Assembly: GCA_015179125.1 (NCBI GenBank)
Contig: WHVA01000145.1
Span: forward strand, 162,936-226,935
DNA length: 64,000 nt
Direction of reading: 5' to 3'
Source of the DNA: Gautieria morchelliformis
Lineage: Eukaryota > Basidiomycota > Agaricomycetes > Gomphales > Gomphaceae
Position 1 is the first letter of the stretch; each line of letters opens with the position of its first letter. The notes below the pieces were generated by a model. That model saw only the letters and a program-made list of their open reading frames with translations. It searched no databases and had not been told where the DNA came from. The translations under genes were made by a program, and so were the position numbers. Positions 26,518 to 52,385 of the stretch are shown here, in pieces.

Positions 26518-26953
26518 CCGTGCATCATCACTGGCAGTGGCAATGCGCATAATTACACCGTGCCATGATTGCTCCGAATTACATACACGCATCGAGTTCT
26601 GCAACAAATAACAGCAACAGCAACAGCGCGCTGTGCTGTGTCGTCCTTCCTTTCATAAATCAGCGTCCGTTGCAGAGTCTGGACTCTGGCGCCCCGCCGG
26701 CGAGTGATCCGAGTCACTGGCAGGAGCTCGAATTGCGGGGGCGGCAGAATCTATGTCCATGCACGCGCGTACGGTACCGCCTCGGAGAGTCGGGACTTAG
26801 TATATAGCGCTGCGAGATGCGCTGAGATGCGAGATTCGTTCGAGATGTGGCGGTGGCGGTACGTGTGATCCGACGCAGATTGGCGAACGAAAGGAGAATT
26901 GACACCTAAGTATACTCATCATCTGAAATTAGTTGGACAATTCAGTCCAAAAG

Positions 26954-27061
26954 CGAAAGACAAAGGACTCCATCGTACCTCGGAGTCGATCAACAATAAC
27001 ATGACTTGTTACTTATTGTTGGCAGTTACGCAGTATGGGTGTCACCCTCCTTTGTCTTTCG
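26954..27061. other. Nested dyad, copy in arm 1
   Basis: Same structure as at 718-831: outer CGAAAGACAAAGGA / TCCTTTGTCTTTCG and inner CAACAATAA / TTATTGTTG. A further half copy (GATAATGTCTTTC) follows directly. Confidence 0.6.
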
Positions 27062-27773
27062 ATAATGTCTTTCGATAATGTCTCAGCACCCGAAGTTACC
27101 AGGTTAAGTTGTTAACAGATGTCTCGCACGGAAAGTAGTTAACACCATTAATATGGGCCTTGACCGCCCGCGTTTGTAATTCCAGCAATTAGGTTAGGTA
27201 GCGCCTGGAATGGACTCAGGTAGCGGCAGGAACCAGCGCGTATTTCAGAATTGGATGTTTGGGTGAATTCGTGAATTGGTGTACTAGTTAGTGTACTGGT
27301 GCATTGGTGTATTAGTGTATTGGGTATACGAATGCAGAGATATAGACATTGCGTAGCACTGTACTATGTACGAGATTCTTAGATACCAGTACGGGAATAC
27401 AACACAATACACCGGGTCTAACTCCGCGCGGCACTCCGAGTCGCGGCGCGATACACGGTACACGGTACACGATACACGATCCCGATCCCCGCCCCACATC
27501 CCCGGCCCCACCGCCACCCCATTATAGTCTATAGTCTAGTCGACCGCCGCCACCGTGACGGCGCACGTCGCGGCGCCGGCGTCGGCGGCACTTCCACTCC
27601 CCGCCCCCCCCTCCGCCCTCCGGGTCCTGAACGAATACGGGCCCGGCGCACGTCACATCATGATTACGCTCCCGTTGCTCTTGCTCTGCGCCTCATACCG
27701 CCTTATCCATACACCCACGCATCCTGCATTCCGCATTCCACACATCCCACACATCCCACGCCTTCCTGATAGC

Positions 27774-29428
27774 CTAATGCCACCGCACGGGCACCAGACT
27801 CGGCACCCCCACGTCAGCCCCAGGACCTACACCAGGACCCACCACGGGACCGACGCCGGGACCTACGCCAGGACCCACACCGGGACCAACGCCGGGACCT
27901 ACGCTAGGACCTACGCCGGGACCCGTAACATCGCGCGGCGCAGCGATGGGGGCGAGCGTGTTCGAGCCGAGGGGAGGCGGCGACCCCGCGGCGGTGTAGG
28001 CGTGCGCGGGCGCGGGCTGCGGCGTGGGCGGGGGCGAGGGGAGCATATGTGCGTGCGCTGGGGGGTACGCGACGGGCGCGGGCGTTCCCGTTCGCGTTCG
28101 CGGAGCCGGAGCCGGGGCCGGGGGGCGTGCGGGGCGGGTTCACGAAGACGCGCTTCGTGTATTTGCCCGCGCGGCGGCGGGGGGGCTTGGGCGGGTCGGG
28201 GAGCGGGGCGGCTATGGCTAGGCCTGTGGCTATGGGTGCGGTGGCGGCGGTGGCGGCGGTGGGGGTGGGAGCGGGACTGGCGGGTGTCGAGGTGGAGGTA
28301 GGGGGCGTATGTGGCGCTGCGGGTGCGGGTGCCGTTGCTGTCGTGCTGGTGGGCGAAGGGTGTGCGTTTGGGGGTGCGGGTGCGGGTGCGGGGAAGCGCC
28401 GTGTGCCAGCGGGGTCGAGGCGCGCACGTGCTCACGTGTGTTGCGCGCGCGGCCGCCCGGCGAGAGGCGCAGCGTTGCTAGCGACGCGTCGACGTCGGCC
28501 GCGCTCTCCAGCCCCAGCCCCAACCCCCTGCGCCGCTTCGCGGGGGGCTCGTCCCCGGGCGGCGTCTTGAAGTGCTCCCGCCGTCTGGGGGGCGTCGGCG
28601 TCGTCGCGCGTGCGTGCGCGCCTTTGAGCACGCGCCCAGCCCCGGCCCCATCCTCCCGCCGAAAAAAACACGCGGTGCTGCACGCCGAATCACGCGGACG
28701 TCCCGCGCCGCGCGCCGCTGCCTACTTTTCTCGAGCTCGCCCCGGGCACACGCCTCGCACGAGCAGTCCCCGGGGAAGCCGCCCGCGTCGCTGTGGGTGT
28801 GCAGGTCGTGCGGAAAGGAGCCGCCATTCGGGGGACTGGTCGGGGAAGGCGTCATGAGCTCGTGGCCCGTGTCCGGGGGCGGGAAGGCCTGCCGGGCGGG
28901 GAAGGGCGGAGCGGGACGTGAGGGGCAGGAGGGTGGAGTCTAGGCGGTCAGAGCCACAAGAGACTGGATAACGGGACGTACCATCCGCCGGGCGGGGTTG
29001 TGCCTCCAGGCTGTGTTTGTGTTTGTGTCTGGGTCTGGGTCATGCTGGCGGATCGATGGATGGCGGGACGTGGTGAAGGCTGGAAACGCGTCATGCAGGA
29101 TGGACACCTCCACCGTCCCCTCCACTGGCAGACACACCGGAAACATCATTAGTGTTGTCTGAGGGAGGTGAACAGACGTTTGGAGTGGACGGGTAAAACG
29201 CGTGAATGCCGTGAAAGATGAGGGAGTCGATGGTGCGGGTAGAATGGACAGGACGACATGTGCATACCATGCAAAGACGACCATGTCCGGGCCTGTTGTA
29301 CTGTCTGTGTCTGTGTCTGTGCGATGCTGCTCGGAGTCGTAACTGCCGAGTCGGTGTGCATGTTTGTCTTTGTTTGGCAGGTTCCTGATCCCGGTAAGAC
29401 GAAAGCTCTCTTCGCTCAGGATGATCAA
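27774..29428 (-). pseudogene. TF-like gene, C-terminal half, unit U3
   Basis: Minus-strand blocks run from low-complexity DPDPDTNT and TGHELMTPSPTSPPNGGS through FPHDLHTHSDAGGFPGDCSC, EACARGELEKSRQ, GAHARATTPTPPRRREHF, AKRRRGLGLGLESAADVD and SLATLRLSPGGRARN. They continue with the basic RRRAGKYTKRVFVNPPRTPP and a VGPG repeat, ending VPSLVPVRWH. The RRRAGKYTKRV motif and HELM..FP segment resemble C-termini of basidiomycete Zn2Cys6 regulators. Frames change at several points, so no full product is expected. The matching N-terminal half may be the fragment at 31317-32713. Extreme GC content creates long antisense ORFs here. Confidence 0.5.
27818..27926 (-). repeat. 12-bp minisatellite encoding (VGPG)n
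   Basis: About nine tandem units of the form GGTCCYGGYGTR on the minus strand encode VGPG repeats just before the TF-like C-terminus. The array is the same length in arm 2 (49297-49405) but shortened to about three units in U4 (43141-43200). Confidence 0.7.
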
Positions 29429-30405
29429 TATCCGGTCGATAAGAGTTTACGAACGATGGGGATGGGTGTGTATCTGGATAATGCCGTCTATATTTAACTA
29501 AGGCACCGGTGTTCCAAGGGAGCCGCCATGATTCGATCACGACAGCTACAATTGTTTCCAATCTGAATTATGGAATGACTGCCAGGCGTCCAATGCCGTG
29601 TATTCTCGCTAGGTTGCACTGTCGCCATTCTAATAATATCATACTACATGTAGACTGCAAACACATCGTAGATCACCTCAGTAGCGTCCTGAGCTTTCCT
29701 GGGCCACCGGGCACAGCTCTACATCACCGTCACCGCGTGTACACCGAATGCTCAGCCTCGTCGATACCATGTGCGCCATCTTGAAATTCGATAGTCCCTT
29801 CATACGACGACCTCTTCTCGCGTGGTACAGGACACGCCGCCAAAATCAGAATCGACTCGTGTCGCCATATCAAACAACGTTGGCACGAACTGATACCTCT
29901 CCTGAGATTATCCAGCATCGCTATAGAATCCCAGCCACGTGCAAACTCTGGGCATTGAGCTGGACAGCCTAGGTCTCTCATATCATCTCGCTTCCTCGTG
30001 TGCTCATCTTCGTAAGCGTAAGTAACACCCTGGAGATGCGACATCTTAATACACATCAGTGAGCTGTGTTGCAGTTGGTTTTCATGTGGTGTTACGCTGA
30101 CACTGCACCGTCAGTCGTCAATGAGTGCCAAGTATGCCTACATGACAAGTTTATATGTCTTGGGAGACCATTCCTCCCAGGCAAATCAGATCTAACGATC
30201 AATTCCTGGCAAGAAGCGAAGCATCAATTGCTCGCCCGCGCCCGGCTAACGCTATCTGATACCTCGACGCTGTATTGACAACTTTAATTCTTTAAATAGA
30301 ATGTTCGTTCATCAGAACCATCTGCCTTGCATACTGTGCCATGCCTCGACGCTGATGGGGTGTTGTGAACATCTGTTGACCTGGCAGCACCCATAGCCAT
30401 AATCC
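29429..30405. repeat. Inter-gene spacer of unit U3
   Basis: It is identical to 46817-47793 inverted and diverged from 22201-23117. The 108-codon minus-strand ORF at 29730-30056 is present in both arms because they are the same sequence, but it is not preserved in U2. No gene is called. Confidence 0.5.
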
Positions 30406-30413
30406 TATATATA
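30406..30413 (+). promoter_or_regulatory. TATA box upstream of the chimeric ORF
   Basis: TATATATA 90 bp before the ATG at 30503, inherited from the DUF6533 gene family. Confidence 0.5.
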
Positions 30414-30502
30414 CAGCTTGCGCGATCTGATCTGGTACACTAATCCCATCGCTACGCAAAGCTTAGTTCCTCGTCTGCATCTCAGTTTTTCTTGCTTCTA
30501 TC

Positions 30503-31179
30503 ATGTCTCAGGCGGACCCCTCGGCTGAAATCCAGGCGCTATCAGACCTGTACGTACTTACCACATCGAATGATATGCAGAAGAACTTACCTGAACTAGC
30601 TTTGCGTTCAACTCTACCACTGTCCATTCATCTCCTCCTGGCAACACCATCGCTCGCAAACACGATTGCATTTGATGAGCTAGTCACTTTTGTTGATCTG
30701 GCTCGACACCTGAAAGCACGCATCCAATGGAATCAACATTCAGATATTAAGGATCCTCCCCACCAACTCCCAATTCATATCCACTATTTCATCCGAGACT
30801 CCATCAGTTTGGACGATGATACGACACGGCTTCTATGGGAATCCTTTAAGTGGATCTCTTGGGAGGTATCTGAGGCAGAACTCGCTGGATTCTACTCCCG
30901 CTCTATAGCTTTGCTCCCTTTATTTCTGCAATTTGGTCCACAAAATGGTGTCGGTTATGTGTCTTTGGTGTTCGCATTATGTTCTATCTTGGTTAACATA
31001 CGACAGTCACGAAACGTAATCGTATCTACGAGCACGGCATCGGGTAAAAGCATCATATACCAGGTCTGTCTGTTAGTCCTCATTTCGAAGTTAGGATCGC
31101 GTTTAAAAACCTTCTGCATGTTAAGGTCCCCCTCCTTCAGTTTCTAGAAGCTGATACGACTGCTACCGCTATACTCATG
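30503..31179 (+). CDS. Chimeric ORF: DUF6533 exon 1 fused in frame to a CxC/KDZ-type segment, then an HRQ1-like helicase piece
   Basis: Codons from 30503 give MSQADPSAEIQALSDLYVLT, as in gene B. At 30624 the sequence leaves the inverted repeat without breaking frame. It continues TIAFDELVTFVDLARHLKA, PIHIHYFIRDSISLDDDT, LLWESFKWISWEVSEAEL and LLPLFLQFGPQNGVG. This resembles the region before the CxC5/CxC6 cysteine clusters associated with KDZ transposases. After an intron-like stretch the helicase exon RNVIVSTSTASGKSIIYQ (31006-31063) follows, then VPLLQFLEADTTATAILM (31126-31179). The open frame runs to 31147 if unspliced. It sits behind a conserved DUF6533 promoter, so expression is plausible. 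It may equally be a passive fusion. Confidence 0.55.
31006..31179 (+). pseudogene. HRQ1: HRQ1-like DNA helicase fragment (Walker A region)
   Basis: Two exons joined by a GT-AG intron (31064-31125) encode NVIVSTSTASGKSIIYQ and VPLLQFLEADTTATAILM. STASGKS is the nucleotide-binding motif I of Hrq1/RecQ4-type helicases, and the following segment is the usual lead to motif Ia. The splice donor after ILM at 31180 is kept, but the next sequence (FPTKAL in the family) is missing and a different gene begins. Only about 36 codons remain of a protein of roughly a thousand. Confidence 0.55.
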
Positions 31180-31316
31180 GTGCGTGGCGTTCATTCTGTC
31201 TTATTTGCGTCCCTGGTTCCTGATTTTCATTCTTTTGCTTTCATCTCTTTCCGCTGCTTTACCCTTTCTCCCCCGCGGTCGCCCGACATGGACACATGCC
31301 CTATCTCCACCCTTAG

Positions 31317-32713
31317 GCAAATGCCTCCAGCGCAACTCCAAATGCACGTACACCAAGGTCTCTGCACGTCGCGCCTCCACTTCCTCCATACCTTCCTCAA
31401 TCTCTTCCATACCTCCGTCGATTGGCTCAATGCCGGTGGCGCCCCCGTCTACATCACTTGTCCGTTCGCACCCACACCCACACACCCAGCGGCACCATGC
31501 CCAACATCCACATCCACATCCCCAACATCCCGCACATCAGCACACCCACGATTTGTTTGTGCCACCCACAGTGCCTTCTATGGCCCCCCGCCCCACGGCA
31601 GGTGCTCCTGCGGGCTCCGGGGGGTTGGTCGTGGTGGTGTGGGCGTAGGCGTCGGGGTATCTGCGAGTGCTGACACGAGCAGCGAGGCTGCGCTGTTTCC
31701 TCAGCCCCTTCATTTCACTATACCGCTGTATCCACAGGCGTTGGACGTGATAAGTAATGGATCGGTAGGTCTAACCTTGCAAAATTCAGTTTGATTTATT
31801 TTTGGTTTTTATTGCCAATATTATCCGCTTTGCACTTCTTTCACTCGATCGTTCACTTTTGTTTTTCGGCGCCTCACCTCACTATGCTGTTATTCACCGA
31901 CTTGCACTTTACAGCCCCAGCACCCTCACGCACCCTTCACCAAGCACGACCACGATCATGCACACTTACATCAGATCCCACATGCGTCACACCTTGCCCC
32001 ATGCCTGGACCCTCCTAATAAGGGCTTCGATGCATTTCTCGCTGGGGAGGGGCCAGATCCGGGAGCCTTCGGCACCTCGGGGTTCTTGTATGATGGGGTC
32101 ATGGGGGGACAACAGCAGCACCAGGGGCATCAGGGACCGCACGGTCAGCTGGGGGAGCAGCAGCAGCAGCACGAGCAACAGCAACAACACGAGCAGCAGC
32201 ACAATAATGTCCACACACACGCTCCAGACTTCGCGTTCGACACCAGCCGAATGTTCCAGTTTAGTGCGTCACCCCAAGCCCAACTACAGCAGCGCGCGGG
32301 GGAGTATACGTTTTCTCACGCACACGCTCCAGTTCGCGGAGGGATCACAGCATAATCATAGTACGCTGCATGGCTCACAGCATGGACAACACCACGACCT
32401 GAGCCTCAGCGCAGGAACGGCGCCCCTCGCCCTGCCCGGAGGTGTCTCTAACGCATTTGGGCTAATGAGTCTTGATGACCCGGTTGTTGCTGCAGAGATG
32501 AACAAGAGCGCTTCGTTCTTTGCCCCAGGGGCCTTGCCAGGCAGTGCAGGTGCAGGGGCTGAGGGTGTTGCGTTTGAGTGTGGGATGGGTGGAGTGAGTG
32601 GGGGGTTAAGCATGGGGGTGGGCGGAGTGGGGATTGGAGAGGGGGCGACGCCTGGAAAGGACGCGAATATTGCTGAGTTGAGGGATTTCTGGAAGGCATT
32701 CAATCCAACTAAG
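31317..32713 (+). pseudogene. Zn2Cys6-type regulator, N-terminal and middle fragment
   Basis: After an acceptor at 31315 the frame reads KCLQRNSKCTYTKVSARR, which fits the last two cysteines of a Zn2Cys6 binuclear cluster. Ser/Pro/His-rich low complexity follows, then ALFPQPLHFTIPLYPQALDV. After an intron come DAFLAGEGPDPGAFGTSGFL, a Gln/His tract and FAFDTSRMFQFSASPQAQ. A frameshift near 32310-32345 leads to LMSLDDPVVAAEMNKSASFF and DANIAELRDFWKAFNPT, ending at a donor (32714). The first zinc-cluster half and everything after DFWKAF are missing. The unit TF-like copies could be the matching C-terminal half of the same kind of gene. Confidence 0.55.
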
Positions 32714-32900
32714 GTACACGGATCAGAAAGCCCCTGGAGACGCGGTCAGCGCCCGCCTGTCGTGCTCGCTATCGCATGGCAACAACATAGCAGCATCAAG
32801 AATATATCGGCAGATGGTAGAAAGCGAGGCATACAATCTAAGGATAGGTATCGAAAGGTAGAGCAGAGCACATCAAGAAATACAGCTGATTGATAATGTG

Positions 32901-33043
32901 CAAGCATGGAAGCATGAGTGGACGTCCAAGAAATAAAGAATTGCAGGATCGTACAATGACAAGAATAAGGCTGAGCAAGCATGGAGATATGAATGGATGC
33001 GCAAGAAATAAAGAATTTCAGGATCACGATGACGAGAATAAGG
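32901..33043. repeat. Two-copy 75-bp tandem duplication
   Basis: CAAGCATGGA...AAGAAATAAAGAATT...CAGGATC...GAGAATAAGGC occurs at 32901 and again at 32976 with about 80% identity. In one frame both copies give a Q-AW-(K/R)-x-EW-xx-KK pattern interrupted by the same TAA, so the duplication may come from a coding exon. Confidence 0.55.
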
Positions 33044-33076
33044 CGAAGTACAGTACCTATAACTCATCGCAATTGA

Positions 33077-33604
33077 TTAGTCTATGACAATGATTTCATT
33101 GCCTTCGGGACTTAATATGACGTTGTCGAACAAGGCCTTCGTCCCTATCGAAAGGTCCTGTTCCTCCTCCTTGATTGTGAATGAACAATGGTCACGTTGC
33201 TCACCCGGGAGGATTCCTTTCCCTTTAGTTGCGCCAGCTTGGATGTCGAACGAGTCCTGATGCTTAGAGCGTACCATGTTCATGTATTCCACATTGACAT
33301 CTTCACCTGCGGTACCCGTTGCAAGAGGATGTATTGCGCCACCCCATACCCAACTAGCGTCGACCATTGCTTTGGCCTCTGAATGAGGACACCCTTCGCG
33401 TTTCTTGACCAATTCCACAGTAACCTCATGAGAAAGCACATATCGAAGGTACGTATGCCTGTCCAAGGGGCCAGGGCTTGATGTGTTGAATAATTCCATC
33501 GTCTTCTGGAAACATAGCTTCCAGAGCTTCCATTTCCTGTGTGTCCTTTTCCAGGACACAAGGTATAACAGCAGCGTCAACCTGCATATGCCCGCTAACG
33601 CCAC
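33077..33604 (-). CDS. Hypothetical 175-aa protein, possibly an RTC4-like domain remnant
   Basis: The frame contains HTYLRYVLSHEVTVELVKKR followed by GCPHSEAKAMVDASWVWGG and AIHPLATG. The alternation VLxHEVxxxLVxxxxGCxxxEAxxxxxxSxxxGxxIHP recalls the RTC4-like domain of agaricomycete proteins often found near KDZ transposons. The identification is weak. The first 35 residues are basic and hydrophobic and may be read-through of an upstream exon. No paralogue exists in the window. Confidence 0.35.
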   Translation of the reverse strand: MALAGICRLTLLLYLVSWKRTHRKWKLWKLCFQKTMELFNTSSPGPLDRHTYLRYVLSHEVTVELVKKREGCPHSEAKAMVDASWVWGGAIHPLATGTAGEDVNVEYMNMVRSKHQDSFDIQAGATKGKGILPGEQRDHCSFTIKEEEQDLSIGTKALFDNVILSPEGNEIIVID

Positions 33605-34010
33605 TTGTTTTTTCTGCTACTATTAATTATACTATATTAGGAAATATAACATCACATAATCATTGTGGGTGCTATGGGCGACCATGCCTCCTAGTGGGTA
33701 CTATGGTAATTTGAGGGCGTCATAGGGTTAGTGGGTCCATGGGTGTGTCCAGGGACCGGTCCGTGGACAAACTTCCGGCGGCAGGGTCTTCCTGGTGTAA
33801 AAGGTACCGAAATCTAATGTCGGAGTTTTCTCCAGTGGCGAACTTTTCAAAGCCGTGTTTATCTCCCATATTAAGCCGTTGATCAGATCCGAAAAGAAAG
33901 CTCAGACGTATAGTAATGTATCTTATCATGGTCTGAATACATGAGGTAAACCTACTCCATATTCCCGCTCTAAGCCAAGCTGTCCTAACCTAGTCGGGGT
34001 TTGTTTTCAG

Positions 34011-34257
34011 ACCCCTAAAACGTGGTGAATGGTTTCTGGATCGACAGGATACTGGTCATTCTCACCGCGTTTTAGGGCTTGGTAATCGTGGTCGGAATAT
34101 GTAGGCTAGTCTGATATAGAAGCGCCAACTCCTAGACATTAGTGGGTACTCGTGATCTACGATGATGTCGGCGCCGCGGACGTCTAAATACCTGGGGCTG
34201 GGTTCAATCTTCTGCAACCCCATGTCCTCAATCTTCAACATAGGATCACGAGTACCC
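34011..34257. other. Two adjacent inverted repeats (16 bp and 14 bp arms)
   Basis: CCCTAAAACGTGGTGA (34013) pairs with TCACCGCGTTTTAGGG (34062) with one mismatch. GGGTACTCGTGATC (34144) pairs perfectly with GATCACGAGTACCC (34244). A third copy of CCCTAAAACGCGGTG occurs at 41533 at the edge of unit U4. No gene is seen between 33605 and 34530. Confidence 0.5.
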
Positions 34258-34535
34258 AGGGTAACCCCACATCGTCGGTTGTCGGATTCTGTCATAGTAT
34301 GGATAAATCAGACCGACGCTTGATCCCGATCAGACTTCAGCCATGTGTGGCCACGCGGCAACACATGCAAGGGCATATGATTGCTCGTTCCCGGGCTGAA
34401 CTTGGAAAAATTTGGAGAGCAGCGACTTAACAATATATTAGTCACTACTAGTACTAGTAGAATTCTCTGAAGTCCTTTCCGATCCTGACCTTATGTAATT
34501 AGAGTACACTCGTTCTTCCTCTTTCACCACCACCA

Positions 34536-34600
34536 CCATGACCGTGATGTGTTTGCCCCATGTGGGCCAGTAGCACTGGGTGGGCACATCACGGTCATGG
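34536..34600. other. Perfect 16-bp inverted repeat
   Basis: CCATGACCGTGATGTG at 34536 and CACATCACGGTCATGG at 34585 with a 33-base loop. It lies just upstream of the DML1 fragment in a His/Thr-codon-like CACCAC context. It could be a breakpoint scar or a hairpin. Confidence 0.55.
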
Positions 34601-34818
34601 CCATGTGTGCTTTTTGCTTTTCGTGCCCCACAGCGCGTGCACACCACACCTCACAGACCACGGTGCGCGGGGGAACGGCGAGAGCGGCGACGGCACAGGG
34701 AAGGGCGCGGGCGCGTGAATGTGCGGGGCCATGTGCGTGTGCACCACCAGGTCCAACGTGTCATTCAGAGAGGGTCTTGCGCCAGATGTATGTCAGCGAC
34801 TACCACCGCCATTCTTAC

Positions 34819-35641
34819 CGATTCTGATGTCCCCCAGGGCTCTACGACCTTCTGCCCCCGCCTCCTCTTGATCGATTACAAGAGTAAATCCAACAGTGCA
34901 TATAAGTATATCTTAACCATCTCAAACACCATACAGGCAAATTTGCCTCTTATCAATGCTCTCAATGTTGGTGAAGAAGATGCCCCGGTCAATTCGACGT
35001 GGTCAGCTCCATTTTTGACATTCGCTCTTCATTTCCAACCTAGAAAACCTCAGGACAGGGCCTGTTTCGGAGCATCTCCAGGACCCTATCCCGCAGAGCT
35101 CATATCACGCCCGCCTTGACGCTGGGGGGGATGAAGAGGATGAAGATGACTTAGATGTGGAAATGGACGAAGGCGAGCACGATTCTGTCCCCGATCTCAC
35201 TTCGTCCATTCGCTTTTGGTTCGACTATTCACGCGTGTTTTACCATCCTCACGGTCTCCACCGCATCCCGGACCATGCAGAGTGGGAGCGCGAAGCCGGA
35301 TGGCCACAGAGTGTCACGTATGATATGGTGCGTTCACTTGACTACCCATATTGAAAAGTTCCATGAGACTGACAAGGGATGCATATACCCAGAATCAGGC
35401 TGTGCTGGAAGACTCCTTCAGACTATTTGCAGAAGAGTGCGACTTGTTACAGGTACGTCTTCTGCCGCAGGCCGCTTGTGCTCATCGCTTAATCGGACAC
35501 ATCCTTAGGGTGTCCAGCTGTGCATGGACGCGCCGTCTTTCGGCTCCTTTACAGTGTCACTTCTTTCCCGGTTCCGTGACGAGTACCCCAAACTCCCTGT
35601 CCTCAGCTTCTGTTCGCTCTTGCGGCATGATCCTGCTGAAG
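34819..35641 (+). pseudogene. DML1: Misato/DML1-family fragment (N-terminal half)
   Basis: Coding blocks in order: SDVPQGSTTFCPRLLLIDYK, LPLINALNV, PVSEHLQDPIPQSSYHARLD, an acidic stretch, RFWFDYSRVFYHPHGLHRIP with EWEREAGWPQSVTYDM, LEDSFRLFAEECDLLQ, and GVQLCMDAPSFGSF followed by RFRDEYPKLPVLSF. This matches the order in DML1/Misato, a tubulin-related protein of fungal mitochondria. Introns at about 34964-35040, 35326-35360 and 35451-35508 have GT-AG borders. The first exon (start with MREI-type sequence) and the C-terminal half are missing, and one splice phase does not fit, so the copy is not functional. Traces at 35880-36050 could be a decayed later exon. Confidence 0.65.
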
Positions 35642-35730
35642 TCAATTTCTCTTACGCAGTTATACGCAGATATGACTTGTATGGAATTACTCTGGACATA
35701 GATTTGGAAAGGGGCTATTCCTATTCGTAG

Positions 35731-36770
35731 AACTTTCCACTTCTCAGCTGGGCCAGGACGAAGCTGATGGCGCCTTTCATAGAACCGTTATTTTGGACAG
35801 TTTATCCTTATCCTGTATATCTTAGGTGAAGCCGTTCTTTCAAAACTGTCATATTTTAATCCCTTCAAAAAGTGTACACATGGCCATCTGCAGTTTCGCT
35901 GAAGGTGAGCTCGCATAGACATGGTACACACCTGGGCCACTGATTCCCCTTCAGTTGTATGTTTCCACTGCTGCCGTACACGAACTCTTTACTCACAGAC
36001 CCTCCGTTTCGGCAGCTGCACCGGTTTACGCTGGTGGGAATCGGGGTTGTAAGTCCAGGGAGCAGTTTTTATCATCAGTTGCCTTTCCTTAATTGGCTAC
36101 AGAGAAGCTGTCGCTATACTCAGCGTGCAGTGTAAGTACAAGTCTCGTATGTCGTTGCAATGTTGATATTTGATGAGCAGGTATCCTGATCACTCACGTA
36201 CATATGTTCTTTGCTTCATTTATTGGGCATTATGCAACTTTGAATTCGTCAGAGTTGGCGGTGGGTTGGGATATGGGTCGCTCGGGTCGTGGTGAACAAC
36301 CCGCATGTTTTCAGGGTGCGGGGAAGGCAGTGGAACGGCTCTTAAGGTAGAAAATAAAATTCTATGGGGCGGTGTGGACGTGATGTAGCTATGATGCATC
36401 GCGTTGAGGTGCTACCTATTAGAGTAATGGAACTAATTTTATCTCCACTGATCTGCCGGGTTTCGAGGGGCTCAAGTATAATTAGATTAGGACTACTTGC
36501 GAGGCTTAAACATGGATGTAGGTAATAACATCGCAAATACACGATATGCGCGGGCACAATTTGACAAGTTCATAAAAGCTTGTGCTCAGAGGAGGCGGGT
36601 CGGTCAGGCTGTGATGAGCTCACGTGTTATGATGCTGAATACCTATATTGTTTGGACCTACGAACGAGGACTAACATCTATGAAGGCATCTAAACTGAAC
36701 GCAAGGCACGCCATATTCATGATCCGAGTACCCCGACTGATCACAGCCCGAGCACCCACTATAACCCCGC
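35731..36770. other. Stretch without a recognisable gene
   Basis: It contains splice-like sites and a short open stretch (LYVSTAAVHELFTHRPSVSA near 35955-36015) that may belong to the DML1 remnant. The ORF at 36497-36814 runs into the mariner terminal repeat and is not supported. Nothing else is seen. Confidence 0.4.
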
Positions 36771-36992
36771 TACAGTTGCGGACAACCAAAGTCCACCAAC
36801 TTAGTAGCCAGTGACTGAGAGATTTGGGGGGTAATCTGACTTCAGATTCGGACTCAGGAATGCAAAATACGTCGAAAAACACTCCTTTGGAATTTTTCCC
36901 ACGAGGATTTCAGCCAGCCAAATTTTTGGACAAAAATTTCAAAAATTTAACATATAAAGGGTCATTTATCCGGTGTCTAAAGTAGGTACGTG

Positions 36993-39664: not shown

Positions 39665-40100
39665 GCGTCAAGCTGGCCAAATCACGTGAGTATGTTATGT
39701 AATGTAATATTAAAATAATTATTTCGCCTGCATCCGTCGTGGAAATTTTTTTATTTCTTCAGAATCAGATTCAGCTTGAAGAAAGCTATCGATTCCGCTA
39801 TTTTCTATATTTTTAGCTATTTTTTTGGTGTCCGGCCAAATTTTGAAGGGCCAAATTTTCAAATAGCACGTTCTGAGGAATCGGCTCGTGGAAACCTGCC
39901 CGTAAGGACCTAAATAGACTCTATCTAGGCTTAAAAACGATGTTCTAATGCGGGTGGGGTGCCCATAACTGGTTAATCTTTTTAGTGGACTTTGGTTGTC
40001 CGCGACTGTAGATCTCACCTGCTCGTGAGAATTCCCACCACGATTACGAATCGGTAGCGGCGCATTGGCGCCAGTCCCCGACTCCTGGTGGGGCTAAGTA

Positions 40101-41459: not shown

Positions 41460-43222
41460 TACAGGTACAGCAGGAATCCTTTACAGGTTGTGTCGACAGA
41501 ACCCTCCCCTCCTTTCAGTCGGAGTCGGGGACCCCTAAAACGCGGTGGATCTGAGCGAAAAGAGGCGTGTCGCACCCACCAAACAAAGACAAACAGCACA
41601 CCGACCCCGACTCGGCAGTTACGAGCAACATGACACAGACACAGACAACAAGTCGGGCATCTGGGCATCGTCGTCTTTGCATGGTACGCACATGTCATCC
41701 CTCCACTCCCTCATCTTTCACGGCATTACCACGCGTTCTACCCGTCTACTCCCCTCCCGGGCTTCATATCTTCCACCGCCCTCTCCGGCCCCCGGACATG
41801 ACGTTGTAATGATGTTTCCGGTGTGTCTGCCAGTGGAGGGGACGGTGGGGTGTGCGCCGGGTGTAGATAAGGCCAGCAAGAGCAACGGGCGCAGTGTGTA
41901 TTTCCCTTTGCATATCACCAGCCCGTCCATCCTGCATGACACGTTTGCTACCCTCTCCACCACGTCTTGCCATCCGTCCATCCGCCAGCATGACCCAGAC
42001 CCAGACACAAACACAAGCAGAGACCCTGGAGTCACAACCCTGCCCGGCGGAGGGTATGTCCCATTGCCCAGTCCCGCGTGGCTCTGACCGAGCGCTGTTC
42101 CTTAGACTCCATCCCGCCCCTCACGTCCCCCACTGCCCCGCCCCCGCCCACGGGGAATCAACTCGTGAAGCTCTTCCCGACTAGTCCCCGAGTGGCGGCT
42201 CCTTCCCACATGACACGCACGCCCACCACGACGCGGGGGCCTTCCCCGCGGATGACACGCGCTGCCCGTGCGAGACGTATGCCCGGGGCGAGCGCGAGAA
42301 GAGCAGGCACCTGGAGAGCGAGTGCGGCCGCTGTGCGTAGCGCGGGACGTCCGCGTGGTTCGGCGTGCAGGAGCGCGCATTTTTGAGGGCCGGTGGGCAC
42401 GAGGGCGTGCGCGTGCTCAAAGGCGGGCGCACGCGCGACGACGCCGATGTCCCCAGATGGTGGGAGTTCTTCAAGGCGCCGTCCGCGGCCGAGCGCAAGT
42501 TTCATGTCGCCGGCGGACGAGCCCCCGTGAAGCGGCGCAGGGGCCTGGGATGAGGCTGGGGCTGGAGAGCACCGCCGACGTCGATGAGTCGTTGGCGACG
42601 CTGGCCCTCTCACCGTGGGGCCGCGCGCGCAACGCACGTGAGCATGTGCGCGCGTCGCCCCCGCCGCCACACCGCACGTCCCCGCACCTCCGCACACACG
42701 CCTTCGCCCACAACAGCAACAAAAACGGCCGCACCCGCAGGGCCACACACGCCCCCCACCTCTAATTCTACACCCGCAAGCTCCCCCTTACCCGCGCACA
42801 CCACCGCCACCGCACCCGCCACCGCACCCTAACTCATACCAGCAGGCCTACCAATACCTGCCCCCGATCCCCCCAACCCCCTGGCCGCCGCGCGGGCAAA
42901 TACACGAAGAGCGTCTTCGTGAACCCGCCGCGCACGCCGCCGGCTCGGGAAACGGCCACGCACCCGCGCCCAACGCGTACCCCCCCACGCACGCACATAT
43001 GCTCCCCCCGCCGCTGCCCATGACCACGCAGCACGCGCACGCCTACCCGGCCGCGCCGCCGCCGCCTCCCCACTCCCGCCCCTCGCACGCATGAACCCGA
43101 ACGCGCTCGCCCCCATCGCAGCGCCTCCGCCGCGGGATGTTACGGGTCCCGGCGTAGGTCCTGGGGTCCATCCAGGGGCTGGTGTGGGGGTGCCGGGTTT
43201 GGTCCCTGTGCGGTGGCATTAG
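41460..43222 (+). pseudogene. TF-like gene, C-terminal half, unit U4
   Basis: Plus-strand blocks: SSFTALPRVLPVYSPPGL, SIRQHDPDPDTNT, NQLVKLFPTSP and GGSFPHDTHAHHDAGAF. They continue with RGEREKSRHLESECGRC, VQERAFLRAGGHEGVRVLKG, PVKRRRGLG, ESTADVDESLATLALSPW, AGKYTKSVFVNPP-like and VPGLVPVRWH. It is more diverged from the other copies than they are from each other, yet in places better preserved: the VQERAF..AGGHEGVRV block fits the ERAFFAQAGKEIVRV pattern of basidiomycete Zn2Cys6 proteins. Stops and frameshifts remain. It ends at 43222 and is followed directly by spacer sequence that elsewhere lies 1.2 kb further on, a deletion private to U4. Confidence 0.5.
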
Positions 43223-44936
43223 GCTATATTGGGAAGTGCTTGGAAAACAGTGCGCTGTTTTTGTTACAGACTTACTGTAAGTGGGACCATCGTGTAGTAA
43301 TACCATCGATGATGCACGGCCGAGAACTGGCGTTGGTGCCGCGTCTGGATCCTGGCGGGCGGGGGCGCAGCCGCGCAGGGCGGGTACAACGTCGAAACTC
43401 CCAAGGCAATGTTTTGAACGGAACCACGCATGGCATGGCGCGAGCCCTCCCAGTGGACGCACGCACAGTGCTCGGCATTCTCGGCCGTCGTCAGACAAGG
43501 AGAGGGACCGCGGTCGTGCATCGTGCATCATGCATCGCGACTCCGAGTCACGAGTCGAGTGAGGGACTGTCAGTGGAAGTACAGCGGCAGGCGGCGCATC
43601 GCGTGACGATGGCGTCCAGTCCGGCCGTATCACGACTCGAAGATTGTAGGTAGACCGTGACGGTGGACACGGACACGCGGTGGGCATAGGGACTTTACTC
43701 TGGCACGACATCCGCGGATAAATGAACGTCAAGACTGTATGGTGCTCTGAGTCGGCGGGCGGGTATCTTGGAGACGGACAGCCGGACACGACGAGCCTAG
43801 GAGCTTTTGGCATATCCGCATATACTCATGAGGCTGTACGGCGCTCGCGTGGAGTATACTATACGATACTATACTCTACGCGTGCGACTGGAATATCAGC
43901 GTCCATCATGGTCGGGTACATCGCGGCCCCACATTTTAATGCGATGTCAGGCTCCACCGAGGCCAAACGCTGCAGAGATTCGTGCGCATTACACTAGGGT
44001 CTCGCGTACTCGCGCTGACAGGGTGTTTGAGACTGTCATGGGCCCACGGCGTTTGCAGCATGGGGCCTATGCATGGGCAGAGTCAGCGCACAGCTGAGTC
44101 CGGGAGTCGGCTGGAGACTCTTCCTAGTCATCTTTCTCCTCGCGGGCTGTGGCAACACTCGACCAGAGGGACGGAGTAGGTTCGGCCTGTGCGACACACT
44201 TTCATATAGGATCAGGGAAACTGGGTCTGGGAGTATGCTTCTGCCCAGCAGAATAGCATCCCAGGAACTACCACCAGTATCCTGGACCATAGGACAGACT
44301 ACCGCCTTTGTTGAATGGTATGTAGATCATTATTATTGATGCTATATTTGCACATATTCACATGTGGGAAATTAGTTGACACTGATGCATGCTGAGCCCT
44401 GATGTAAGCTGGCTTGACATGTAAGAATGTGAGGATGGTATGGTATGCCTGGCCATGCTGTTTCACAGCATTTACAAACTAACATAGCCAAGCATGTACT
44501 TATCACCAGATCAGTATCCCAGGCACATGCAGGCCAAAGCACTACATGCAGTTTGTTTCCTGCAACTGTCCCTGCATATTCCTCAGGATGTAATTTCTTG
44601 AATCTGCACACAGTCCACTGACTTTCAGCAACAAAGCTCAAACAATATTTTCATGAAGCACAGTAATAATAAATTATAAACACAGTCAAATTTGAAATGC
44701 CACAGAATATACATGTATGTATGGGTTTTTGACGGTATGGATTGGCCAGGGTGAGCAGAGAGCCACATCTTCTATGGTGACCAATTTCCAAGTGCTGCAA
44801 TAGATTAGAAAGGTAGGTTGATGTAAGTTGCTGCATGTCCCTCTGCTAGGGGGTTTGTATTGGAATTGCAGCATGATGCATTGGCCTTGGATACTGTCAT
44901 TAAGCCTCTGCTGTTCTTCCAGATCCTACCAAACCA
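43223..44936 (+). repeat. Unit U4 spacer
   Basis: It matches 50690-52385 and, inverted, 25000-26520. The segments GGCACGACATCCGCGG, GGCCTATGCATGGGCAGAG and GGGTCTGGGAGTATG are shared. No conserved coding frame was found. The antisense ORF at 43043-43813 is not kept in other copies. Confidence 0.6.
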
Positions 44937-46719
44937 TTAACCAGTGCATGAAGGAGATGCTAACTGCTCACTGGAGACACTTGGCCCGGCCATTTCTGAA
45001 TCTCCAGGACATCCAGTTGCCCAAGGAAACTCATCCAACTCTATTCCAGCTGACCCAGCCTCACCAGGCAACTGCTGGCCTTCCTGATCAGCAATGCTGT
45101 CCTCCATGGTCTCAGTGCCAAGTGCCTGGCTCAAGCATGGGTTCCCAAATTCAGCCACTATAGCATTGTGAACACTTTGTCTGGCTGCTTGGAAGCTGGA
45201 GAATGATAGAGAGGGTAATGAGGGGTTGCTAAGTTGACTGTGTCTCTCTTGAAGAGTTAGGTGGAAGCGGCAGATAATAATTATTGACAAGCTGTATGTG
45301 CACTGTTAGTACAATCATGTCTTCCTTCTTAAATTGGTGAGAAGATACCTGTTCTGAAGAGGGCCTAAGAAGCCATCAAGGCTTGGCTTCATACCATGAA
45401 GGTGCTGATATTAGTCATTTTATTATCATGATCAATACCTTGCATACCCTTAACACCTGAATTGTGAGAGAACATCAAGTAAACTCTGGCTCAACAAGTT
45501 TATAAGTAAGCATACCTTTGATGTGATAGTACTAGCGAAAGTCAGTGTAAGCACAAATCTGAATATGAATCAGATATACAAAATATCATAGGAAAAATAT
45601 TCCATACCCATATCTGACAAAGCCTTACCAGTAGATTAGTGATATGTTCATATGTATACACAATATGTTGTATGCTCACCTTGGTAAATCACTAGACTAA
45701 TGAGAGATTTCTTATCCCAACTCTCACCTTTCCACCAAAGCCTCAGAGTTTGAATTGAGCTCAGAATGGTAACTATCACAACTCCAGTGTCAAAAAGGAT
45801 TACAGTAACATCATTGATGGTAAGCACTGTCAAATTTATTCAGAGACAAATCAGGCAAATACAGACCCCTAGATCTTACACCTGATGGATCTGTCAGTAT
45901 TAATCTAGCCAGAAAATCCAACTCAGTACTGACAACGTGAGTGTATTAAATTGTGATCTAGTGATATTGCAGTTGTCCACAACAGACTGGTACTATATCC
46001 AGTGAAATGAATTTATGCTATTTATACAAAGTGTGCACAGGGACATACCAGTTCAATGATCATAGTGCTACAAGTAAGCAGCCCAAGAACACCCAGCATG
46101 CTTTGATTCTGAAGGGAAATAGCATATGTGCGAGCTAGCAGAAGGCCTAGATAACAGAATGTGTGATACTTCTGCATGAGAAATATATGGGTATAATCAC
46201 TCACCCTGTACAGCAATCACAGAAGGAACTTGTACAGCATTAGCTAGGTGACTTAAAGTATTACATTTCCTTTGAATATATGAGTCTCTAGGTTGCTTCT
46301 TCATAAAGAATGCAAGTCATACTAGATACTTGTTCCAATCAGTAAGGTGTTACACATGAGAACTATAGATGTAATATACCTCAAGGGGTATGTTAGATAA
46401 CTGCTAACAAGAAAGACACCCAAGGGCAGGTAACAAGCGAATAAATAGAGAATGGTGCCAATTTTGATGGTCTTGCACCAAATATGCTTGATCTCAGATG
46501 GCAGTGTGTGAAGAGTGTCGTAGACGAGCAATGCTGTATAGCAAGCTATGGAAATCGTGGAATTAGACAGAGGGTATGTACACATACCAAGCGCTGCGAC
46601 AGTGGTAGAGTTGAACGCAAAGCTAGTTCAGGTAAGTTCTTCTGCATATCATTCGATGTGGTAAGTACGTACAGGTCTGATAGCGCCTGGATTTCAGCCG
46701 AGGGGTCCGCCTGAGACAT
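44937..46719 (-). CDS. DUF6533-type multi-pass membrane protein gene B
   Basis: It starts MSQADPSAEIQALSDLYVLT at 46719. The DUF6533 core is CYTALLVYDTLHTLPSEIK followed by HIWCKTIKIGTILYLFACYL (46380-46540). A later exon has TVILFDTGVVIVTILSS with LRLWWKGESWDKKSL (45690-45830), and the C-terminal exon ends FPWATGCPGDSEMAGPSVSS, then SPSCTG and a stop. The first 122 bp lie inside inverted-repeat arm 2 and are identical to the start of the chimeric ORF at 30503. Compared with gene A, it and gene C share HIWCKT and GCPGD. A TATATATA box is at 46809-46816. Confidence 0.65.
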
Positions 46720-47793
46720 GATAGAAGCAAGAAAAACTGAGATGCAGACGAGGAACTAAGCTTTGCGTAGCGATGGGATTAGTGTACCAGATCAGATCGC
46801 GCAAGCTGTATATATAGGATTATGGCTATGGGTGCTGCCAGGTCAACAGATGTTCACAACACCCCATCAGCGTCGAGGCATGGCACAGTATGCAAGGCAG
46901 ATGGTTCTGATGAACGAACATTCTATTTAAAGAATTAAAGTTGTCAATACAGCGTCGAGGTATCAGATAGCGTTAGCCGGGCGCGGGCGAGCAATTGATG
47001 CTTCGCTTCTTGCCAGGAATTGATCGTTAGATCTGATTTGCCTGGGAGGAATGGTCTCCCAAGACATATAAACTTGTCATGTAGGCATACTTGGCACTCA
47101 TTGACGACTGACGGTGCAGTGTCAGCGTAACACCACATGAAAACCAACTGCAACACAGCTCACTGATGTGTATTAAGATGTCGCATCTCCAGGGTGTTAC
47201 TTACGCTTACGAAGATGAGCACACGAGGAAGCGAGATGATATGAGAGACCTAGGCTGTCCAGCTCAATGCCCAGAGTTTGCACGTGGCTGGGATTCTATA
47301 GCGATGCTGGATAATCTCAGGAGAGGTATCAGTTCGTGCCAACGTTGTTTGATATGGCGACACGAGTCGATTCTGATTTTGGCGGCGTGTCCTGTACCAC
47401 GCGAGAAGAGGTCGTCGTATGAAGGGACTATCGAATTTCAAGATGGCGCACATGGTATCGACGAGGCTGAGCATTCGGTGTACACGCGGTGACGGTGATG
47501 TAGAGCTGTGCCCGGTGGCCCAGGAAAGCTCAGGACGCTACTGAGGTGATCTACGATGTGTTTGCAGTCTACATGTAGTATGATATTATTAGAATGGCGA
47601 CAGTGCAACCTAGCGAGAATACACGGCATTGGACGCCTGGCAGTCATTCCATAATTCAGATTGGAAACAATTGTAGCTGTCGTGATCGAATCATGGCGGC
47701 TCCCTTGGAACACCGGTGCCTTAGTTAAATATAGACGGCATTATCCAGATACACACCCATCCCCATCGTTCGTAAACTCTTATCGACCGGATA

Positions 47794-49449
47794 TTGATCA
47801 TCCTGAGCGAAGAGAGCTTTCGTCTTACCGGGATCAGGAACCTGCCAAACAAAGACAAACATGCACACCGACTCGGCAGTTACGACTCCGAGCAGCATCG
47901 CACAGACACAGACACAGACAGTACAACAGGCCCGGACATGGTCGTCTTTGCATGGTATGCACATGTCGTCCTGTCCATTCTACCCGCACCATCGACTCCC
48001 TCATCTTTCACGGCATTCACGCGTTTTACCCGTCCACTCCAAACGTCTGTTCACCTCCCTCAGACAACACTAATGATGTTTCCGGTGTGTCTGCCAGTGG
48101 AGGGGACGGTGGAGGTGTCCATCCTGCATGACGCGTTTCCAGCCTTCACCACGTCCCGCCATCCATCGATCCGCCAGCATGACCCAGACCCAGACACAAA
48201 CACAAACACAGCCTGGAGGCACAACCCCGCCCGGCGGATGGTACGTCCCGTTATCCAGTCTCTTGTGGCTCTGACCGCCTAGACTCCACCCTCCTGCCCC
48301 TCACGTCCCGCTCCGCCCTTCCCCCGCCCGGCAGGCCTTCCCGCCCCCGGACACGGGCCACGAGCTCATGACGCCTTCCCCGACCAGTCCCCCGAATGGC
48401 GGCTCCTTTCCGCACGACCTGCACACCCACAGCGACGCGGGCGGCTTCCCCGGGGACTGCTCGTGCGAGGCGTGTGCCCGGGGCGAGCTCGAGAAAAGTA
48501 GGCAGCGGCGCGCGGCGCGGGACGTCCGCGTGATTCGGCGTGCAGCACCGCGTGTTTTTTTCGGCGGGAGGATGGGGCCGGGGCTGGGCGCGTGCTCAAA
48601 GGCGCGCACGCACGCGCGACGACGCCGACGCCCCCCAGACGGCGGGAGCACTTCAAGACGCCGCCCGGGGACGAGCCCCCCGCGAAGCGGCGCAGGGGGT
48701 TGGGGCTGGGGCTGGAGAGCGCGGCCGACGTCGACGCGTCGCTAGCAACGCTGCGCCTCTCGCCGGGCGGCCGCGCGCGCAACACACGTGAGCACGTGCG
48801 CGCCTCGACCCCGCTGGCACACGGCGCTTCCCCGCACCCGCACCCGCACCCCCAAACGCACACCCTTCGCCCACCAGCACGACAGCAACGGCACCCGCAC
48901 CCGCAGCGCCACATACGCCCCCTACCTCCACCTCGACACCCGCCAGTCCCGCTCCCACCCCCACCGCCGCCACCGCCGCCACCGCACCCATAGCCACAGG
49001 CCTAGCCATAGCCGCCCCGCTCCCCGACCCGCCCAAGCCCCCCCGCCGCCGCGCGGGCAAATACACGAAGCGCGTCTTCGTGAACCCGCCCCGCACGCCC
49101 CCCGGCCCCGGCTCCGGCTCCGCGAACGCGAACGGGAACGCCCGCGCCCGTCGCGTACCCCCCAGCGCACGCACATATGCTCCCCTCGCCCCCGCCCACG
49201 CCGCAGCCCGCGCCCGCGCACGCCTACACCGCCGCGGGGTCGCCGCCTCCCCTCGGCTCGAACACGCTCGCCCCCATCGCTGCGCCGCGCGATGTTACGG
49301 GTCCCGGCGTAGGTCCTAGCGTAGGTCCCGGCGTTGGTCCCGGTGTGGGTCCTGGCGTAGGTCCCGGCGTCGGTCCCGTGGTGGGTCCTGGTGTAGGTCC
49401 TGGGGCTGACGTGGGGGTGCCGAGTCTGGTGCCCGTGCGGTGGCATTAG
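47794..49449 (+). pseudogene. TF-like gene, C-terminal half, unit U5
   Basis: It is the near-identical inverted partner of the 27774-29428 copy, with the same blocks (FPHDLHTHSDAGGF, AKRRRGLGLGLESAADVD, RRRAGKYTKRVF, VGPG repeat, VPSLVPVRWH) and the same frame breaks. Shared defects show that both copies were already pseudogenes when the arms were duplicated or homogenised. Confidence 0.5.
49297..49405 (+). repeat. (VGPG)n minisatellite, arm 2
   Basis: 12-bp units GGTCCYGGYGTR, the same number as in arm 1 (27818-27926). Confidence 0.7.
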
Positions 49450-52385
49450 GCTATCAGGAAGGCGTGGGATGTGTGGGATGTGTGGAATGCGGAATGCAGG
49501 ATGCGTGGGTGTATGGATAAGGCGGTATGAGGCGCAGAGCAAGAGCAACGGGAGCGTAATCATGATGTGACGTGCGCCGGGCCCGTATTCGTTCAGGACC
49601 CGGAGGGCGGAGGGGGGGGGCGGGGAGTGGAAGTGCCGCCGACGCCGGCGCCGCGACGTGCGCCGTCACGGTGGCGGCGGTCGACTAGACTATAGACTAT
49701 AATGGGGTGGCGGTGGGGCCGGGGATGTGGGGCGGGGATCGGGATCGTGTATCGTGTACCGTGTACCGTGTATCGCGCCGCGACTCGGAGTGCCGCGCGG
49801 AGTTAGACCCGGTGTATTGTGTTGTATTCCCGTACTGGTATCTAAGAATCTCGTACATAGTACAGTGCTACGCAATGTCTATATCTCTGCATTCGTATAC
49901 CCAATACACTAATACACCAATGCACCAGTACACTAACTAGTACACCAATTCACGAATTCACCCAAACATCCAATTCTGAAATACGCGCTGGTTCCTGCCG
50001 CTACCTGAGTCCATTCCAGGCGCTACCTAACCTAATTGCTGGAATTACAAACGCGGGCGGTCAAGGCCCATATTAATGGTGTTAACTACTTTCCGTGCGA
50101 GACATCTGTTAACAACTTAACCTGGTAACTTCGGGTGCTGAGACATTATCGAAAGACATTATCGAAAGACAAAGGAGGGTGACACCCATACTGCGTAACT
50201 GCCAACAATAAGTAACAAGTCATGTTATTGTTGATCGACTCCGAGGTACGATGGAGTCCTTTGTCTTTCGCTTTTGGACTGAATTGTCCAACTAATTTCA
50301 GATGATGAGTATACTTAGGTGTCAATTCTCCTTTCGTTCGCCAATCTGCGTCGGATCACACGTACCGCCACCGCCACATCTCGAACGAATCTCGCATCTC
50401 AGCGCATCTCGCAGCGCTATATACTAAGTCCCGACTCTCCGAGGCGGTACCGTACGCGCGTGCATGGACATAGATTCTGCCGCCCCCGCAATTCGAGCTC
50501 CTGCCAGTGACTCGGATCACTCGCCGGCGGGGCGCCAGAGTCCAGACTCTGCAACGGACGCTGATTTATGAAAGGAAGGACGACACAGCACAGCGCGCTG
50601 TTGCTGTTGCTGTTATTTGTTGCAGAACTCGATGCGTGTATGTAATTCGGAGCAATCATGGCACGGTGTAATTATGCGCATTGCCACTGCCAGTGATGAT
50701 GCACGGTCGAGAACTGGCGTTCGTTTTGCGTCTGGAATTCTGGATCCCGGGGCGGGGGCGGAGTGAGGGCGGCTGCACTGCAACGACGCGCGTCACGCGA
50801 AAAAAAAAACCAAGGCACATATATATCGGAACGGGAGCGGAGCCACGACCCACCCGGTGCCACGGACGCACACCAGTGCCCCGCGTGCTGGGCCATCATC
50901 AGACCAGGACCGAGACCGAGACCGCGGGGCATGCATCGTGGATTGCGCATCGCGACTGGGTGGTAGCACAGGCCACAGCGGCAGGACACGCATCGCGTGA
51001 CGATGGCGTCAAGTGTGGCCGTATCAAGACTCCGAAGATTGAGGATAGACTGTGACAGCGCACTCGGACACGCCGCGGGCGTAGGAATTTTACTTTGGCA
51101 CGACGTCTGCGGATACTGATGTGCATCGAGAATGTACAGTGCTCCGAGGTCGGCGCGTGGGTATCTTGCAGACAGACAGCTGGACACGCGGCGAGCCTAG
51201 CAGCTTTTGGCTCATCCACGTAGTATACTCAATGTGCATCCAAACTGTACTGCGCTCGCGTGGAGTATAATATACGATACTATACTCTAGGCGTGCGACT
51301 GGAATATCAGCGTCCATCATGATCGGGTACGTCGCGCTCTCCCTCAGTTTAACTCATTTAACGCGATGTCAGGCTCCACCAGGCCAAACGCTGCTGAGAC
51401 TCCTGCATGACAATAGGGTCTTGCGTACTCGCGCCTGATAGGGTGTTCGAGGTCTTCATGCGCCCGTGGCGTTCGCAGCATGGGGCCTATGCATGGCCCG
51501 AGTTAGCGCACAGCTGAGTCCGGGTGTGGGCTGGAGACCATTCCTCGTCATCCTTCTCCTCGGGAACTGTGGCAACACTCGACCAGAGGAACGGAGCACG
51601 TTTCTCATTGATGGTGCGGCGTGTGCCACACACTTTCATATAGGATCAGGGAATGGGTCTGGGAGTATGGTTCTCCTGAGCAGAATAGCATCCCAGGAAC
51701 TAACACCTGTATCCTGGACAGACTACCGCCTGCGTCGGATGGTATATAGATCATTATTATCAATGCTATATTTGTGCATATTTTCACAAGTTGGATGTTA
51801 GTTGACACTGATGCATGCTGAGCCCTGATGTAAGCTGGCTTGACGTGTAATAATGTGACGCTGGTATGGTATGCCCAGCCATGCTGTTTCACCACATTTA
51901 CAAACTAATATAGCCAAGCATGCACTTCACACCAGATCAGTATTCCAGGCACACCCATGCACAAGCACTACATGCAGTTTGTTTCCCATGGCCATCCCTG
52001 CATATTCCTCAGGATGCAATTTCTTGAATCTGCACACAGTTCACTGACTCCCAGCACCAAAACATGATCACAGTTCACTGACTCCCAGCACCAAAACATG
52101 ATCAATATTTTCATGGAGCACAGTAATAATGAATTAAAAACACAGTCAAGTTTGAAACAGGACAGAATATATATGTATCTATGGGGTTTTGATGCTAGAG
52201 GTTGGCCAGAGTGCATCTTCTATGGCGACCAATTTCCAAGTGCTGCAATAGATTAGAATGGTAGGTTGATGTAAGTGGCTGCATGTTTCCCTGCTAGGGG
52301 GGTTTGTATTGGAATTGCGACTATGATGCATTAGCTTGGATGCTGTCATTGAGCATCTCCTGTTCTGCCAGATCCTACCGAACCA
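49450..52385 (+). repeat. Unit U5 spacer, including the pre-insertion sites of the mariner and MITE elements
   Basis: It is the most complete version of the spacer. It includes the ACACYAAT-rich stretch (49900-49950), the nested dyad (50163-50270), the sequence at 50415-50475 that lacks both DNA transposons found in U1, and the segments shared with U3 and U4. A 37-bp direct duplication (CAGTTCACTGACTCCCAGCACCAAAA-type) lies at 52037-52106. No conserved coding frame is seen. Confidence 0.65.
50163..50270. other. Nested dyad, copy in arm 2
   Basis: Same outer and inner inverted repeats as 26954-27061 and 718-831, preceded by two extra ATTATCGAAAGAC units. Confidence 0.6.

Follow-up and report, generated by a model that had tools for sequence, protein, structure and literature searches.

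Evidence for a recent ectopic gene-conversion tract between inverted DUF6533 paralogues of Gautieria morchelliformis

A 4.1-kb inverted repeat in the genome of Gautieria morchelliformis probably arose by recent ectopic gene conversion within a clustered DUF6533 gene family, between two members in inverted orientation. The two sides of the repeat are older paralogues in opposite orientation; outside the arms they differ by 4% in intergenic DNA and by about 15% in gene bodies. One event suffices to account for the identity of the arms, and we regard the repeat as a clear, ordinary example of a known repair process. Its value is that a conversion tract in a gene family of a mushroom can be dated cleanly here, the unconverted flank serving as an internal clock. 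A 500-aa mitofusin stretch on contig C69 of the assembly is 100% identical to the fzo1 protein recorded for this species of the Gomphales, which makes the assignment almost certain. The species is listed among ectomycorrhizal fungi (PMC7550596, in the part available). The analysis is based on the assembled sequence (122 Mb in 1113 contigs). The window, i.e. the whole stretch of 64,000 nucleotides that was analysed, comprises bases 162,936–226,935 of contig C166 (226,935 bp), and its right end is the contig end.

Extent and age of the identical tract

Self-comparison and base-by-base alignment reproduced the inverted repeat exactly as an earlier note on this DNA had placed it, with positions 26518–30624 (left arm, 4107 bp, + strand) corresponding to the reverse complement of positions 46598–50706 (right arm, 4109 bp, − strand). 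Both arm ends were confirmed; the first outward difference is at 26517/50707 (G/A), and inward identity stops at 30624/46597. The alignment contained 0 substitutions and the two one-base homopolymer differences that the earlier note had found, C8 versus C9 near 27603/49620 and G4 versus G5 near 28897/48325. Its statement that neighbouring units differ by about 10% or more also held, as these units were 79.9–83.6% identical in BLAST.

The repeated units are DUF6533 (PF20151) genes. Pieces of R1 (44940–46719, − strand) and R2 (52389–54160, − strand, start approximate) scored 37.5 and 43.8 bits, respectively, against a cut-off of 24.1, and L1 (23208–24992, + strand, start approximate) contains a PF20151 match at C166:186310–186444. 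From left to right the window contains L1, intergenic DNA, the start of L0 (30503–30624, + strand), which is cut at 30624, mobile elements, intergenic DNA, R1, intergenic DNA and R2. L0 and R1 face each other, and the start of L0 is identical to the R1 start at 46719. Each arm spans one of these genes from its upstream intergenic DNA through its promoter into its first coding stretch; the left arm includes a GC-rich stretch, and the intergenic DNA of the right arm runs towards R2. No tRNA was found in the window, nor did any Rfam family reach the gathering threshold there.

Homology between the two sides continues past the outer end of the arms. The left outer flank (25993–26517, + strand) is 4.0% diverged from its partner on the right (50707–51242, − strand), with 21 differences in 523 aligned bases and 4 gaps, and beyond this 525-bp flank the identity of the L1 and R2 genes is about 80–88%. 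At the divergence of the adjacent flank about 165 substitutions would be expected in 4107 bp, versus the 0 observed. When a related stretch on contig C284 was used as a third sequence, the flank offered 38 three-way variable sites, 21 of which differed between the right and left sides; of 164 such sites in the arm, 0 did (Fisher p = 1.7e-18). This comparison covered right-arm positions 48131–50706, as the C284 BLAST match ends at 48131. Thus, the identity of the tract lies far above that of the flanking homologous sequence, as defines a conversion tract, and its outer end lies within continuing homology, while at its inner end homology stops at the L0 truncation. Taking the upper 95% bound of 3 substitutions in 4107 bp and assuming equal rates, our own arithmetic would give the event an age of roughly 2% or less of the time elapsed since the two copies separated.

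The arm pair has no equal in the assembly among the matches listed. A genome search with the whole arm gave full-length matches at two places only, both in the window, and the next match was the one on C284 with 88% identity over about 2.6 kb (best 40 of 607 candidates). For a 1-kb piece of the arm the next-best identity was 86% (at least 42 matches; best 40 of 383 candidates), and for another 1-kb piece it was 91–92% (at least 49 matches; best 40 of 59 candidates); these match counts are lower bounds in which some matches are pieces of one copy. Across the three genome searches, with the best 40 candidates of each, no other near-identical copy of the arm was found. A 680-bp promoter segment was compared among 25 copies of at least 550 bp (300 pairs). 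The arm pair had an identity of 1.000, followed by 0.982, 0.963 and 0.936, with a median of 0.831. As the arm pair stands above a next value of 0.982 and this median, we exclude chance as the source of the identity.

The inner junction and the 16-kb centre

At 30624|30625 L0 is cut and joined to mobile-element DNA, from which we conclude that homology either ended there or repair was finished by end joining. The junction occurs once in the assembly with up to 3 mismatches allowed. The adjoining element, X (30625–33795, + strand), is about 97% identical to a copy on contig C715, and part of it gave a weak DEAD-box match (E 0.0016), whose 18.7 bits fall short of the Pfam cut-off of 26. Relative to the point at which L0 meets X, the C715 copy seems to reach about 190 bp further left, an extent suggested by the likeness of a motif there to the other end of the copy. 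As far as this copy shows, there is no microhomology at the junction. Several orders of events fit the junction: copying up to an end that was already truncated, truncation afterwards, or a single event with a homologous start and an end-joining finish. The single event is made slightly less likely by the missing microhomology. The frame 30503–31147 runs from L0 into X and is open only if the presumed first intron of L0, which we read as 50 nt by eye, is kept. We therefore claim no L0–X fusion gene.

The 16-kb centre contains mobile elements, intergenic DNA and one gene, R1. X is followed by a small repeat (33838–34032, + strand) with 96% identity to a stretch of family copy L024 on contig C330, and then by the multi-copy element Y (34062–36772, + strand), with ends like TCACCGCGTTTTAGGG. 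Y is interrupted by the transposon Z (36771–40011, + strand) and resumes at 40012. Z has inverted terminal repeats within a duplicated TA and is 98.8% identical to positions 986–4227 of the window; in the copy at 986 these repeats read CAGTCGCGGACAACCAAAGTCCAC. The TA insertion site of Z is uninterrupted on contig C559. After Y and Z there is further repeated and intergenic DNA, and then R1. Beyond the 3′ end of R1, the intergenic segment R0 (41800–44250) differs from C166:155.8–158.1, in direct orientation, by 3.5–4.0% substitutions; identity in 300-base windows was 0.91–0.99, with one large gap. The earlier note had also raised inversion of the centre and palindromic amplification, both of which are possible in principle.

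Probable gene conversion and its alternatives

The earlier note had proposed that the arms were duplicated or gene-converted recently. Our results support this proposal and favour conversion, since the outer end of the identical tract sits within older, still recognisable homology. A break on one side would have been repaired by copying from the other, with copying that began near 26518/50707 and stopped where the L0 truncation left no further homology. In a variant of this scheme, a single event would account for both the copying and the truncation, entering by homologous invasion at the outer end and closing by end joining to X at the inner one. The donor arm was not singled out when the unit at C166:155.3–163.9 was compared for the direction of conversion. 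Several features count against conversion. The inner junction is without microhomology, unlike the non-canonical terminations that used microhomology or added bases in the available part of PMC5104497. The 4.1-kb tract is also long; as far as PMC3961182 was available, mammalian tracts are given there as a few hundred bp for the most part and Drosophila tracts as 518 bp on average, with 22 or 53 kb also reported.

An unlikely alternative is template switching, by which the left side, with no arm of its own before, would have gained an inverted copy of the 4.1-kb block on the right. The non-homologous inner junction with its single occurrence would agree with such a de novo duplication, as would the lack of any remainder of L0 in the centre in the self-comparison (E up to 1e-20). 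The outer end, however, is no novel junction; homology goes on for 525 bp at 96% and into the L1 and R2 genes, so that the event there must have used homology, i.e. conversion or break-induced copying. Somewhat less probable still is an assembly artefact in which one true arm was traversed twice, or two arms 96% alike were merged and polished to one consensus. The arms do differ solely in homopolymer lengths, as would result from long-read consensus noise, and the genomes of the set in which this species appears were sequenced with Illumina, PacBio or both (PMC7550596, in the part available). Moreover, a second fzo1 of the same species was found at 89% identity, which makes two mixed haplotypes conceivable; C284 was considered as a possible other haplotype of C166, to which its copies do not correspond simply in order and orientation. 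Against an artefact, the arms are set between different neighbours on both sides within the 226,935-bp contig, the window is without any N, and the assembler separated the adjoining flank (96%) and the gene bodies (80–88% identity). It is hardly credible that a single large mobile element carries the 16-kb centre as cargo and ends in the arms as its long terminal inverted repeats, despite the inverted orientation and near identity of the arms. Inverted homology continues outside the arms and the centre was not found as a unit elsewhere, and we rejected this possibility on these grounds; individual pieces of the centre have their matches on different contigs (best 40 candidates per search). In addition, the alignment contains no direct target duplication, and parts of the arms occur as gene flanks on many contigs.

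Recent gene conversion would place the repeat beside several known systems, each compared here within the parts of the cited papers that were available. Like the inverted repeats of mammalian sex chromosomes, it has inverted arms that are more than 99% alike and contain gene sequence (PMC8981503, PMC6790999), and the identity of those repeats is attributed to arm-to-arm conversion (PMC8981503, PMC6790999). Here, in contrast, one gene copy is truncated and no GC bias relative to C284 was seen in an unpolarised comparison. A palindrome of the mammalian X and Y type would call for arm-to-arm conversion that is repeated over a long time and shown between species; our data come from one species, in which one event suffices. 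With human inverted segmental duplications (PMC3961182) the locus shares inverted paralogues and a high-identity stretch inside more diverged duplications. Those duplications mediate recurrent inversion (PMC3961182), whereas one assembly gives one orientation of the centre. Long-tract conversion with end-joined termination (PMC5104497) has in common with our case kilobase-scale copying, a homologous start and possibly a non-homologous end; it differs in that our junction is without microhomology and the mechanism is proposed from sequence alone.

GC-biased conversion was also considered as the origin of the GC-rich islands and found no support. In the arm, 121 differences between the right side and C284 comprised 52 sites with GC on the right and AT in C284 and 69 of the reverse, i.e. 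no GC excess in this unpolarised comparison, which likewise counts against conversion in the arm.

Divergence and CpG depletion across the gene family

The genome contains at least 150 PF20151 matches (best 150 of 637 candidates), and the subfamily of the arms is expanded, with at least 42 matches listed, some of which are pieces of one copy. The family sets were drawn from stretches around 20 of these matches, further C284 stretches and the window. Similarity to the DUF6533 membrane proteins of Agaricomycetes that include Snowball (snb1; PMC10949477, in the part available) is at the domain level, with PF20151 above the Pfam cut-off here; the difference is that we find a large local subfamily with CpG-depleted bodies. 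In the titles and abstract beginnings of openly licensed papers, we recognised no description of this locus or of CpG-depleted DUF6533 genes.

Among 23 gene bodies of at least 1500 bp (253 pairs), the maximum identity was 0.958 and the median 0.822. Other pairs in the family are also alike by segments, such as R0/C166:155.8–158.1 and L023/L024, which would agree with conversion. R0 and its partner differ by 3.5–4.0% substitutions and their adjoining gene bodies by 14%; L023 and L024 are 1.9% diverged upstream, 7.9% in the body and 2.4% downstream; and the L1 and R2 bodies are 15.5% different next to a flank of 4.0%. The ratio of flank to body divergence is thus near 1:4 in three pairs, which suggests faster change in the bodies and counts against reading these patterns as conversion. 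The segmental pattern elsewhere may reflect such faster change rather than further conversions. Identity profiles were drawn for 13 pairs that we chose, mostly among the most alike. Identity dropped in the body for L023/L024, L017/L022 and R2/L009; body and upstream were about level for L013/L021; and for L027/L011 the body (0.87–0.99) was above the nearest 600 bp upstream (0.90–0.92), as was also the case for L011/L016. The L014/L015 profile was not followable into the body. A run-length conversion test on 23 gene bodies gave p of 0.01 or less for 50 of 253 pairs (300 shuffles each). This test carries no weight, because conserved exons alone could produce such a result.

The gene bodies, including that of R1, are CpG-depleted. 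The observed/expected CpG ratio, computed for segments longer than 500 bp, was 0.10–0.37 in 28 gene-body segments and 0.62–1.14 in 27 upstream segments, the two identical arms being among the latter. For comparison, ratios of 0.82–1.03 were obtained for six GTP_EFTU-matching stretches. Three DUF6533 stretches with no DNA similarity to the window (E 1e-5) had overall ratios of 0.75–1.10, and three that match the window each contain one or more 250-bp intervals, inside the gene, in which the ratio is 0.00; all 12 of the 12 stretches compared are reported. CpG decay was rejected as the cause of the diverged bodies, as CpG-type differences made up just 14 of 314, 10 of 129 and 15 of 252. The depletion may have been inherited by the copies from one ancestor rather than reflect ongoing methylation. 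Fungi are described as having mostly lost gene-body methylation, apart from some exceptions (PMC13297926, in the part available).

It is conceivable, and in our view doubtful, that conversion acts on the CpG-rich intergenic segments and halts at CpG-depleted, probably once-methylated bodies, with methylation as the barrier. If this were true, gene bodies would stay diverse while their flanks are homogenised. Identity is indeed lost near the border of the CpG-depleted zone in the R0 pair, in L023/L024 and in the arm pair; for the arm pair, this is because L0 is truncated there. Against a barrier, two pairs (L027/L011 and L011/L016) have higher identity in the body than immediately upstream and a third (L013/L021) has about the same in both, and the steady ratio near 1:4 is explicable by plain faster change of the bodies. 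Whether CpG-depleted bodies resist homogenisation is a question for which the wider family is a natural testing ground.

As a separate observation, the CpG-depleted bodies of this subfamily may matter more than the inverted repeat. Differences between codon positions were small among the family copies. The reading frame was kept open through two exons in 22 of 23 copies and through the C-terminal exon in 6 of 23, so that part of the protein appears to be constrained and its end does not.

CpG depletion and GC-rich islands of the DUF6533 subfamily

Gene bodies of the expanded DUF6533 (PF20151) subfamily are strongly depleted in CpG, with ratios of 0.10–0.37 in 28 segments, and the edges of the depleted zones are sharp. 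In the window, the CpG ratio marks such gene bodies at 44250–46500, 51750–53750 and 23500–25750; copies of the subfamily in genome stretches L009–L028, L034 and L035 are likewise depleted. Such strong depletion was absent from sequence upstream of subfamily genes (ratio of 0.62–1.14 in 27 segments) and from the comparison stretches, which comprised three other DUF6533 and six GTP_EFTU stretches. GC-rich intergenic islands lie at 27500–29000, 42000–43250 and 48250–49750. These islands reach 79% GC per 250 bases, contain short tandem repeats and have relatives next to other members of the DUF6533 family.

A second pair of similar intergenic segments

A second pair of similar intergenic segments was observed, consisting of 41800–44250 and kb 155.8–158.1 of the same contig. 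The two segments are in direct orientation, separated by about 49 kb, and are about 96% identical when substitutions are counted, with identity of up to 0.99 in individual windows; where the neighbouring gene body begins, the match declines to 86%.

Mobile elements and other genes

Copies of transposon Z (3.2 kb) lie at 36771–40011 and 986–4227. The transposon has inverted terminal repeats and a TA target duplication, and carries a stop-to-stop reading frame of 327 aa in which low-complexity repeats occur. The coding stretch of element X (30625–33795) gave a weak DEAD-box match, under the Pfam cut-off, and by our reading of the sequence contains a putative Walker-A-like motif. The Copia element at 55313–59810 has 226-bp terminal repeats that are 99.6% alike, and contains a 1027-aa frame followed by a 307-aa frame.

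Two fzo1-like proteins with 89% identity are recorded for Gautieria morchelliformis, one on contig C69 of this assembly and the other on another contig recorded for the species. The second protein may be a paralogue or may represent a second haplotype in the assembly.
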